Of a stretch of DNA of 64,000 nucleotides, positions 28,854 to 30,330 are shown in pieces (within the stretch, counting starts at the first letter, position 1; the number at the start of each line of letters is the position of its first letter). Origin of the DNA: Terriglobales bacterium (GTDB taxonomy: Bacteria > Acidobacteriota > Terriglobia > Terriglobales > Acidobacteriaceae); NCBI GenBank assembly GCA_025980765.1, contig JAICXB010000017.1:1-64000 (forward strand), in the 5' to 3' direction. The notes beneath the pieces are model-generated. The model did not search any database, was not told the DNA's origin, and saw only the letters and a list, made by a program, of their open reading frames with translations. The position numbers were made by a program, and so were the translations under genes.

Positions 28854-29040
28854 TCTGTGTTTTCACCACCTAGTCACATTTGAAAAATCGGTGCGGCCAC
28901 TCGCTTAGATGAATTCATACGCAGAGTGGTTCCTGTTTCAGGCGTTCTTTTTGATTCGTCGCTTTCATGCGATTTCGTCCACATTTGCACGGAAAGCTAA
29001 ATTTTTGCGCGCGCAATGCTAGACTGCGCGGAGTAGGGGT

Positions 29041-29126
29041 TGGCGGAGGCTGGGTGAGTCGAACACCGTTCCTTGCGTGGAACTCCCGCTTTGCAGGCGG
29101 GTCCCGGTACCGACCGGTCAGCCTCC
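29041..29126 (-). tRNA. Allo-tRNA-like gene: 8/4 cloverleaf, anticodon GCA, long variable arm
   Basis: Read on the minus strand, 86 nt including an encoded CCA. Elements in order: acceptor GGAGGCTG; single A; D-arm CCGGT-CGGT-ACCGG (5 bp, tetraloop); GA; anticodon arm CCCGC-CTGCAAA-GCGGG (anticodon GCA, reads Cys codons); A; variable arm GTTCC-ACGCAA-GGAAC; T-arm GGTG-TTCGACT-CACC; acceptor CAGCCTCC; discriminator G; CCA. The acceptor has 8 bp and the T-stem only 4, with no linker. A 7/5 reading would need a C-C pair. The long variable arm and G73 point to seryl-tRNA synthetase, not cysteinyl (U73). tRNAs with 8/4 and 9/3 branches have been described from Acidobacteria as possible missense suppressors or regulatory RNAs. 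Confidence 0.85.
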
Positions 29127-29171
29127 CGCCACCCCTGCATAGTTGCACAAAATGCTGGCGCTCCTAGTCGA

Positions 29172-29177
29172 AGTCAA
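29172..29177 (-). promoter_or_regulatory. Possible -35 box for the unusual tRNA
   Basis: TTGACT on the minus strand lies 46 bases before the tRNA 5' end, with a weak CATTTT 17 bases further on. It is the only sigma-70-like candidate there. Confidence 0.3.
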
Positions 29178-29454
29178 CGCCCCGATCTGTGAAGAAGATG
29201 TCTTTCTTCTGGAGCGATGTTGAAAAGTAGTCCGAAATCGCTAGAAACGGTGCCAAGCGCTGTGTTTAACTATGAGCCCCTTGACCTGTGGGCAGCGAGA
29301 GAACAGTGGTTACTTTCCTCGGGGCAAAATCATCGAATGCTCGTTTTGGGCATTTGGGCTTTCTGATCACGCCGTCAATGCTGCCGTGGGCGACATCTCA
29401 GCGATGTAAACATCCCACCCAGCGCTAGGCGCTCGCGCTGAATTTCATCATCGC

Positions 29455-30126
29455 TCATTGCGTAAAGTTCAGGCTTTGCAGCCGCCAGCCGTCATCCCAT
29501 TTTTTGAAAATTGCCGTGTTGAATTCATCTCCGCTGTAAATCGCAGTGTTGCCTGTCTCGCGCTCCCTGAGTTCTACGGAGTAGTCGGCCGTAGCAAAAA
29601 GCAAACCGAGGCTGTTCATCTTCCATTTCCAATCGAAGTCCACTTGCGCAAGATTTCCATTGATCGAAATGCCGGTGACGCGGACCATCTCGCGAGTGGC
29701 CAGAGGAATAGCAAAATAGTCCCCGTCTTTTTCGTGATCCCTCGTCGCATCGACAGCCTGAAACGCTTTCTCGCCCGCGGGCGTCACATCGACGTGCCAA
29801 CCACTGCGGCCCTTGCGCGTGGTGATGAACCCGGCTTTTTCGAGGGCCGCATATTCGTTTTGGGTTTCTGGGCTCCGATCCCACTTCTGAAGATTCCCGA
29901 GATGGATCACCGCTAGTTTACTTGCGCGGAAATCAAAGCTAGCGGAGATTTTTTCGGCTGCTACGCCGCGTGCCATTCCCATGAACGACGGTCTCCATCC
30001 GTAGGCGAAAGCGAACATGCCCACAAATACAAGGCAGAGCGCTCCCAGGATGAGCGCCATAGCGCCGTTGCTCATTGAGGTGTAAGTTGTCTTTGATTCT
30101 TCCTGCTGCTGAGCTGCAGCTTCCAT
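29455..30126 (-). CDS. Hypothetical single-pass membrane protein
   Basis: From ATG 30126 (AGAGGA eight bases upstream) it has 223 residues. A transmembrane segment, MALILGALCLVFVGMFAFAYG, lies near residues 21-41; the remainder is a soluble domain, presumably periplasmic, of alternating strand-like segments (DYFAIPLATREMVRVTGISI, WRLQSLNFTQ). A glutamine-rich head precedes the helix. No family recognised. The frame reaches 30174, but those extra residues fall in the 3' end of an older reading frame. Confidence 0.7.
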   Translation of the reverse strand: MEAAAQQQEESKTTYTSMSNGAMALILGALCLVFVGMFAFAYGWRPSFMGMARGVAAEKISASFDFRASKLAVIHLGNLQKWDRSPETQNEYAALEKAGFITTRKGRSGWHVDVTPAGEKAFQAVDATRDHEKDGDYFAIPLATREMVRVTGISINGNLAQVDFDWKWKMNSLGLLFATADYSVELRERETGNTAIYSGDEFNTAIFKKWDDGWRLQSLNFTQ

Positions 30127-30140
30127 TTGTTTGATCCTCT

Positions 30141-30330
30141 TTATTTTCCCGGCGGAGGCGGTTCGCCGATCCATTTCACTACGCGGCCCACGATCTCAAC
30201 TGAGTCACTGCCGGGGGAAATGATGCGCACTGGATGGCGCAAGCTGGTGGTTCGGCAACAGTATATAAGTCTTCTTGTCTTTCGCAGCTACTTTATCGTC
30301 ACGCCGTCACGTTGCCCGCCCCGGAGTGCG
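30141..30330 (-). pseudogene. Remnant of an S24/LexA-like peptidase C-terminus
   Basis: In two minus-strand frames the translations IALRGGQRDGVTIK, VAAKDKKTYILLPNHQ and VRIISPGSDSVEIVGRVVKW resemble the last ~60 residues of LexA/UmuD-type S24 proteins (catalytic Lys strand and the closing EIVGRVV). A stop after VTIK and at least one frame change break it. The homology is read by eye only. Confidence 0.4.

Follow-up and report, generated by a model that had tools for sequence, protein, structure and literature searches.

A GCA-anticodon allo-tRNA gene of probable serine type with UAU relatives in Acidobacteriota transposons

In recoded phages, a mobile genome brings a suppressor tRNA that reads a codon unlike the host, and stop codons are reassigned. 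A further group, the 8/4-type allo-tRNAs, was reportedly described by Mukai and co-workers in Nucleic Acids Research in 2017. The purpose of allo-tRNAs is called speculative in the available part of PMC7609411. The same text states that UAU allo-tRNAs could not serve translation in E. coli, and that one published UAU allo-tRNA pseudogene overlaps a transposon-related gene. The gene described here is an allo-tRNA and belongs to this already published class. With the 8/4 allo-tRNAs, as they are presented in that part of PMC7609411, it has in common the 12-bp 8/4 branch, Ser-type identity and occurrence in Acidobacteria.

The gene lies in a 64,000-nucleotide stretch of DNA, the whole of which is called the window. 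ARAGORN called a tRNA-Cys(gca) at window positions 29041-29126 of the minus strand. The features of the locus are as follows.

29041..29126, minus strand: 8/4 allo-tRNA gene, anticodon GCA, 86 nt including the encoded CCA (ARAGORN, fold, covariance-model family)
29119..29126, minus strand: acceptor stem, 5' strand GGAGGCUG, 8 bp (fold)
29104..29117, minus strand: D-arm, 5-bp stem with tetraloop CGGU (fold)
29085..29101, minus strand: anticodon arm, 5 bp with 7-base loop CUGCAAA (fold)
29092..29094, minus strand: anticodon GCA (ARAGORN; 27 of 29 family members have the loop core TTATA)
29068..29083, minus strand: variable arm, 5 bp with loop ACGCAA (fold)
29053..29067, minus strand: T-arm, 4 bp with loop UUCGACU, joined without a linker to the acceptor stem (fold)
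29041..29052, minus strand: acceptor stem, 3' strand CAGCCUCC, with discriminator G73 (29044) and CCA (29041-29043) (sequence, fold)
29127..29135, minus strand: 5' leader GGGGUGGCG, which can pair with G73-CCA and the trailer to give an extended stem in the precursor (folds)
29036..29040, minus strand: 3' trailer ACCCC, pairing with the leader (folds)
29127..29215, minus strand: upstream flank with a weak and doubtful similarity to the transposon-type relative L066 (alignment, shuffles)

The 8/4 cloverleaf is the minimum-free-energy fold of 90 bases in an unconstrained calculation, with all stems perfect. Its energy of -43.3 kcal/mol (z -2.99) was equalled by 1 of 200 shuffles. In the fold and in the pairs of the family, 8 bp and 4 bp follow one another without a linker; a single base separates the acceptor stem from the D-stem region. 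All 27 pairs are intact, and the T-loop, D-loop, G73 and CCA are retained. The architecture that an earlier note on this DNA had proposed from the letters (8-bp acceptor, 4-bp T-stem, D tetraloop, variable arm, G73 and CCA) is thus borne out by ARAGORN and by the fold. That note had also raised the possibility of a canonical fold with a higher score. The Rfam tRNA model left the gene unreported at the gathering score. With E values as high as 10 allowed, a search of the 401-base stretch around the gene gave 3 matches, none of them to a tRNA and all far under their own cut-offs. Hence, with this model silent, no canonical tRNA match is reported at the locus. Our scan for promoter consensus sequences found none at the gene, and likewise none at two canonical tRNA loci. 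The pairing of leader and trailer was considered as a diagnostic feature of mobile hairpins and rejected; by eye, it occurs in 4 of 5 members of the close subfamily, the window gene included, and is absent from the rest.

The host genome assembly (G000) comprises 3.50 Mb in 95 contigs and is 83.8% complete. It has 35 matches to RF00005, and two tandem nadA riboswitch matches were also seen in this genome (L281:12436-12569). A standard tRNA-Cys, the earlier note had argued, would have to exist elsewhere. A canonical tRNA-Cys(gca) with U73 is indeed found in the same genome, at C44:8422-8496, and its anticodon loop has the same seven bases, CUGCAAA, as the window gene. We read three host tRNA-Ser genes (GCU, UGA and CGA), all of which start with GGAG and end with CUCC followed by G73. 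The ends of the window gene are GGAGGCUG...CAGCCUCC-G73. Its pairs G1-C72, G2-C71, A3-U70 and G4-C69, together with G73, are identical to those of the three tRNA-Ser genes. The host Leu and Tyr genes read, which represent the other long-arm classes, start with GC and have A73; position 73 of the host tRNA-Cys is U, as opposed to G at window position 29044. When nine tRNAs for Ser, Leu or Tyr were aligned with the window gene, the four for Ser scored highest (77, 74.5, 67.5 and 64), with Tyr at 61 and Leu at 56 or below. The host has one SerRS match (538 bits). Recognition by SerRS is independent of the anticodon. The available part of PMC7609411 makes this point too. Ser identity of the window tRNA is therefore likely, since the acceptor stem and G73 match host tRNA-Ser and SerRS is indifferent to the anticodon. 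At the level of sequence, the Ser-type assignment of the earlier note holds in the acceptor pairs, the G73 and the alignment scores, and the long variable arm agrees with it.

An 8-bp acceptor, a long variable arm and a GCA anticodon would also suit a tRNA-Sec, or a selC*-type tRNA-Cys recoding UGC and UGU, and the genome encodes SelB (G000:C44:33015-34895, 376.8 bits). This explanation is largely refuted, and we regard it as extremely improbable. A separate tRNA-Sec(UCA) is present at C60:66415-66509 with 64.9 bits, above the cut-off. SelA was not found in the 83.8% complete genome, though SelB and tRNA-Sec are present. The discriminator is G73 and not U73, the perfect 4-bp T-stem has no bulged A51a, and the D-stem has 5 bp. 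With the Rfam tRNA-Sec model, the window gene was absent among the 20 matches listed for its own genome (E of 0.1 or less, with 150 of the 511 candidates scored). Finally, the nearest relatives of the window gene read UAU or UAC.

These relatives were collected by several searches. A DNA search covering 100 relatives gave a match in 1 of 99 other genomes, where the loop reads UAU. The covariance-model scan that the earlier note had proposed was run with a model built from two sequences, the window gene and that DNA-matched relative, and found 29 matches of at least 48.5 bits in 27 of 398 family genomes (up to 11 candidates scored per genome). Over these 29 members, in an alignment fitted to the structure, 98.3% of cells pair, compared with 80.9% after shuffling, and 23 of the 27 pairs have changed on both sides. 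Pairing in the anticodon stem is 93.8%, with mismatches in some members. Two members, L056 and L058, are more decayed and keep 24 and 25 of the 27 pairs. Three matches near 42 bits (L059-L061) resemble ordinary tRNA-Ser. Further members, from other families of the class, came from searches that covered 399 genomes of the class and 396 of the phylum; at most 11 candidates were scored in each genome, and a lack of matches there carries little weight. When GTDB genomes were searched with a pattern for the close subfamily, 107 stretches were returned, with 3 strong model matches and two others at 24.5 and 24.9 bits. In IMG/VR, the close-subfamily pattern gave 6 stretches, none matching the model, and a scan for the GCA form gave 11 stretches, none an allo-tRNA.

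The anticodon of the family is mostly UAU. Its loop core, TTATA, is found in 27 of the 29 family members, and the window gene is the only copy with GCA in the family set. Compared with the common loop CUUAUAA, the window loop differs at exactly the three anticodon bases; C32, U33, A37 and A38 are kept. Differences from close relatives in the D-stem and anticodon stem are paired changes. We collected 45 tRNAs in all: the 29 of the family, nine from the class search and seven from IMG/VR, two of these seven with a canonical body. This tally omits model matches of ~45-52 bits that ARAGORN or inspection by eye identified as ordinary tRNA-Ser or tRNA-Sec, as well as L222 (50.5 bits, UGA) and L225 (49.7 bits); L213 was trimmed to its ARAGORN coordinates. 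ARAGORN read UAU in 27 of the 45, UUA in 2, UAC in 1 and GCA in 1, the window gene, and gave no reading for 14. The TTATA core lies within the anticodon arm in 38 of the 45, and CCA is encoded in 17.

Many of the relatives are cargo of IS1595-type transposons and of a few other Acidobacteriota transposons. Of the 29 regions, 17 contain a homologous transposase no more than 6 kb from the tRNA. Terminal inverted repeats flank the tRNA in 13 of the 29; eleven have CTTGAC in one arm or both, and two are of a second type. For 8 of these 13 repeat-flanked elements, the printed ends are bordered by exact 8-bp target duplications. Pfam identified DDE_Tnp_IS1595 and its zinc ribbon in both IS1595-type transposases scanned (L063 and L065), and the transposase of L074, of the second type, as IS1-like. 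The carriers measure 2.4 to 4.4 kb. Their other cargo varies and includes, according to Pfam, DUF3800, HTH plus peptidase M78, DUF5343-like and Gp49-like genes. The genome of the window itself has a second allo-tRNA, with anticodon UAU, at C47:21211-21294, and this copy is cargo inside an IS1595-type element.

Several further observations were made in and around these elements. DUF3800-VII and DUF3800-IX RNAs (Rfam) occur in allo-tRNA transposons at L063:10733-10827 and L072:7859-7923. DUF3800-type genes adjoin them at both loci, and Pfam supports the DUF3800 assignment for the L063 gene only. A long hairpin, CUCACCGUGG..GGGCGAUAACAC..GGCCC..GAGCCGUGGUGAG, lies within the ~110 bases that precede the allo-tRNA in L067, L069-L072, L076, L079, L083, L086 and L087, with apparent paired changes by eye; Rfam gave no match to it in five of these regions scanned. 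Directly 3' of the allo-tRNA, many IS1595-type elements have, by eye, a TAnAAT-like hexamer on the opposite strand. It points into the tRNA, and an antisense RNA could arise from there. Long-arm tRNAs with the amber anticodon CUA were seen near IS1595-type transposases at L363:5117-5203 and L364:1242-1328.

The codons of the transposases were then compared with a protein profile. ATA accounts for 64 of 311 Ile codons in 16 element transposases, compared with 44 of 809 in 31 window ORFs, and these ATA codons stand at fixed columns. In the cargo ORFs, 40 of 314 Ile codons are ATA (25 ORFs). The profile was made from 75 outgroup transposases, namely L065, from the element with a UAC allo-tRNA, and 74 distinct proteins from IMG/VR, plasmids and phages, identical proteins being counted once. 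In the IMG/VR loci, tRNAs were sought with both the model and ARAGORN, and model-positive loci were set aside from the outgroup. Ten plasmid and phage loci, taken with 200-base flanks, stood outside this tRNA scan. The tested group was 17 transposases beside a UAU-type tRNA, with ATA masked in the alignment; the TTATA core is present in all 17 cases, and ARAGORN reads UAU in 10, UUA in 1 and gives no reading in 6. Left out were the truncated transposase L068 (so that 16 of the 17 in the family regions were used), the short or incomplete L303, L304, L341 and L356, the unfound L359, and L363 and L364, where the model match is a weak one to another tRNA.

The profile recovered the standard residue for 58 of the 59 codons with at least 8 occurrences; ATA was the sole failure. 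Log-odds for Ile were -12.1 at ATA (65 codons), compared with +220 at ATC (206) and +42.6 at ATT (48). The mean for ATA fell below that for ATC and ATT in 17 of 17 sequences. Permuting the Ile codons reached the observed value 0 times in 100000, and 78 times in 100000 when counted by unique columns. Over all 65 occurrences, the best residues for ATA were K (17.0) and P (15.0), scores driven by a few repeated columns, with Ser outside the best five. Counted by 19 unique columns (20 sequences), the values were K 1.8, A 1.2, R 0.3, Q 0.1, S -0.5 and I -9.3. Conversely, the outgroup treated by leave-one-out gave Ile +90.3 and Ser -64.5 for 106 ATA codons in 35 of its 75 sequences. The transposases of L300, L310 and L317, which did not define the group, agree with it (Ile -5.2, 12 codons). 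Among 79 IMG/VR, plasmid and phage transposases, ATA occupies at least one of three key columns in 5 of 5 that lie beside a UAU tRNA, two of which helped to define the group, and in 1 of the 74 others, a Bacteroides plasmid transposase outside the tRNA scan.

In a second transposase family, the IS1-type L074 and L081, the ATA positions are mixed: the five shared ones comprise three polar, one mixed and one hydrophobic, and the four unshared positions are mostly hydrophobic. The L065 transposase, encoded with the UAC allo-tRNA, has 0 GTA among 26 Val codons; a tie between this absence and the UAC anticodon is suggestive only. Its three ATA codons are at columns that are mostly L or V, and once R.

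By this profile, Ile is excluded as the residue for AUA in transposases beside a UAU-type tRNA, and Ser is not singled out. The leading reading is that AUA may be a serine codon private to the transposon. The choice of Ser follows from the tRNA bodies, which are Ser-like, as the profile leaves polar and small residues undecided. Two IMG/VR loci have a tRNA-Ser-like gene with a long arm, a canonical length and a UAU anticodon next to an IS1595-type transposase (L300:5881-5975 and L317:6593-6688). Their bodies align best with tRNA-Ser (85 compared with Tyr 68 and Leu 64.5 for L300; 99.5 compared with 69.5 and 63 for L317). Free folds of both have a 7-bp acceptor and a 5-bp T-stem, with a D-arm or anticodon arm that is not a clean cloverleaf. 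The mixed ATA positions of the IS1-type elements stand against serine at AUA, as does the failure of UAU allo-tRNAs to serve translation in E. coli that PMC7609411 states.

The codon data also bear on an alternative offered in the earlier note, that the RNA is a regulator. Its tRNA-like fold would then serve a protein or RNA partner, for instance in a toxin-antitoxin system or in the processing or transposition control of the element, and decode nothing. Several properties of the family would suit such a role: 28 of the 45 tRNAs have no encoded CCA, some anticodon stems are mismatched, the TTATA core is kept, HTH-M78, DUF3800 and Gp49-like genes are among the cargo, and UAU allo-tRNAs were unusable for translation in E. 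coli according to the available part of PMC7609411. However, a pure regulator leaves unexplained why AUA is non-Ile beside UAU-type tRNAs and Ile in the outgroup. This behaviour of AUA points to decoding and weakens the regulator alternative for the family. The canonical-length tRNA-Ser-like genes with UAU at two loci, and a window loop that departs from the common one at precisely the anticodon, also speak against it. We consider a purely regulatory RNA quite improbable.

The window copy differs from its transposon-borne relatives in its surroundings. It sits in a variable region behind ftsZ, and no transposase or terminal-repeat pair was found within 6 kb. Motifs of the terminal repeats gave 1 and 2 matches in the window, within chance and far from the gene. 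Congeners did not serve to delimit an insertion, since no fetched congener sequence aligns past the end of ftsZ. Neither DNA nor covariance-model searches matched the gene in five congeners. The adjacent gene at 29455-30174, encoding 239 aa, was likewise unmatched in five congeners, and no Pfam family exceeded its cut-off there. The downstream flank could not be aligned with close relatives. For the upstream flank, the similarity was reached by 0 of 500 shuffles for L066, and by 17, 37 and 103 of 500 for L064, L065 and L068; unrelated control loci gave 29 and 40 of 500 on the upstream side, and 1 of 500 on the downstream side. In view of these controls, the flank similarity was set aside as proof of the origin of the copy.

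This isolation, with no partner transposase nearby, no counterpart in the congeners and no alignable downstream flank, is what would be expected of a relic: a silent, drifting copy left from a lost transposon, with GCA as an accident of decay. We think such a history unlikely, though still appreciable in probability. The 27 pairs, the two loops, the G73 and the CCA have all survived, and the D-stem and anticodon stem differ from close relatives by paired changes. Other members, L056 and L058, are visibly more decayed.

Our preferred account, which we place somewhat on the probable side, is that the window gene is a Ser-type 8/4 allo-tRNA with a GCA anticodon that comes from a transposon-linked UAU family and now stands alone. 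In the usual form of the family, the tRNA would have a UAU anticodon and decode AUA. The transposase of the same element places AUA at fixed columns unfit for Ile, such that the element would supply both the codon and its decoding tRNA. Correct synthesis of the transposase would then require the presence of the element's own tRNA. The window copy would descend from the UAU form by change of the three anticodon bases, the other loop bases and the stems being kept. If expressed, it would be charged by the host SerRS and would put serine at some UGC and UGU codons in competition with the canonical tRNA-Cys, and it may in this way act in the host. We infer that the best description of the gene is an orphan whose anticodon has been switched and which would place Ser at Cys codons. 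For the wider proposal, in which Acidobacteriota transposons would use a private code with AUA as Ser and the window tRNA would be a switched version letting Cys codons be Ser, the balance tilts only slightly in favour. Cys residues are often important in proteins, whereas AUA is rare in the host (the window ORFs cited above). If active, the GCA tRNA should therefore be costlier than the UAU form, and the window gene could plausibly be weakly expressed, used under a special condition or no longer functional.

If the transposases beside allo-tRNAs use AUA as a non-Ile codon, the purpose of allo-tRNAs becomes testable, and sense-codon reassignment would reach elements of a few kilobases. In contrast to the stop codons that recoded phages reassign through their suppressor tRNAs, the codon concerned in these elements is a sense codon, with a transposon as carrier. 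A transposon with its own sense codon was not found in the titles and abstract openings, among the matches listed, of literature on allo-tRNAs, AUA reassignment and IS1595. According to the available part of PMC8629427, an alternative-code screen of over 250,000 genomes left out those Pfam models that represent transposons or other mobile elements; a transposon-private AUA code would thus be invisible to that screen. The yeast CUG-to-Ser tRNA, as treated in that part of PMC8629427, is likewise a Ser-type tRNA that reads the codon of another amino acid. There, the change is genome-wide, whereas in Acidobacteriota the case is tied to a mobile element.

The selC* tRNA-Cys, as described in the available part of PMC7609411, resembles the window gene in its 8/4-type branch and GCA anticodon. 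It differs in being of Cys type, with U73 as discriminator and a T-stem that contains an unpaired A, whereas in the window gene the discriminator is G73, the T-stem is perfect and the acceptor is Ser-like. The anticodons of the 8/4 allo-tRNAs in the same text are mostly non-serine with UAU among the commonest, and UAU likewise prevails here. GCA is not named in that part of PMC7609411; the window gene has GCA and stands alone. The allo-tRNA class itself is already published, and what is new here concerns the relatives, that is, their transposon context and the behaviour of AUA in the transposases. Unlike the published 8/4 allo-tRNAs, as far as that part of PMC7609411 presents them, many of the relatives described here lie within terminal repeats and target duplications, beside transposases whose AUA codons are unfit for Ile.
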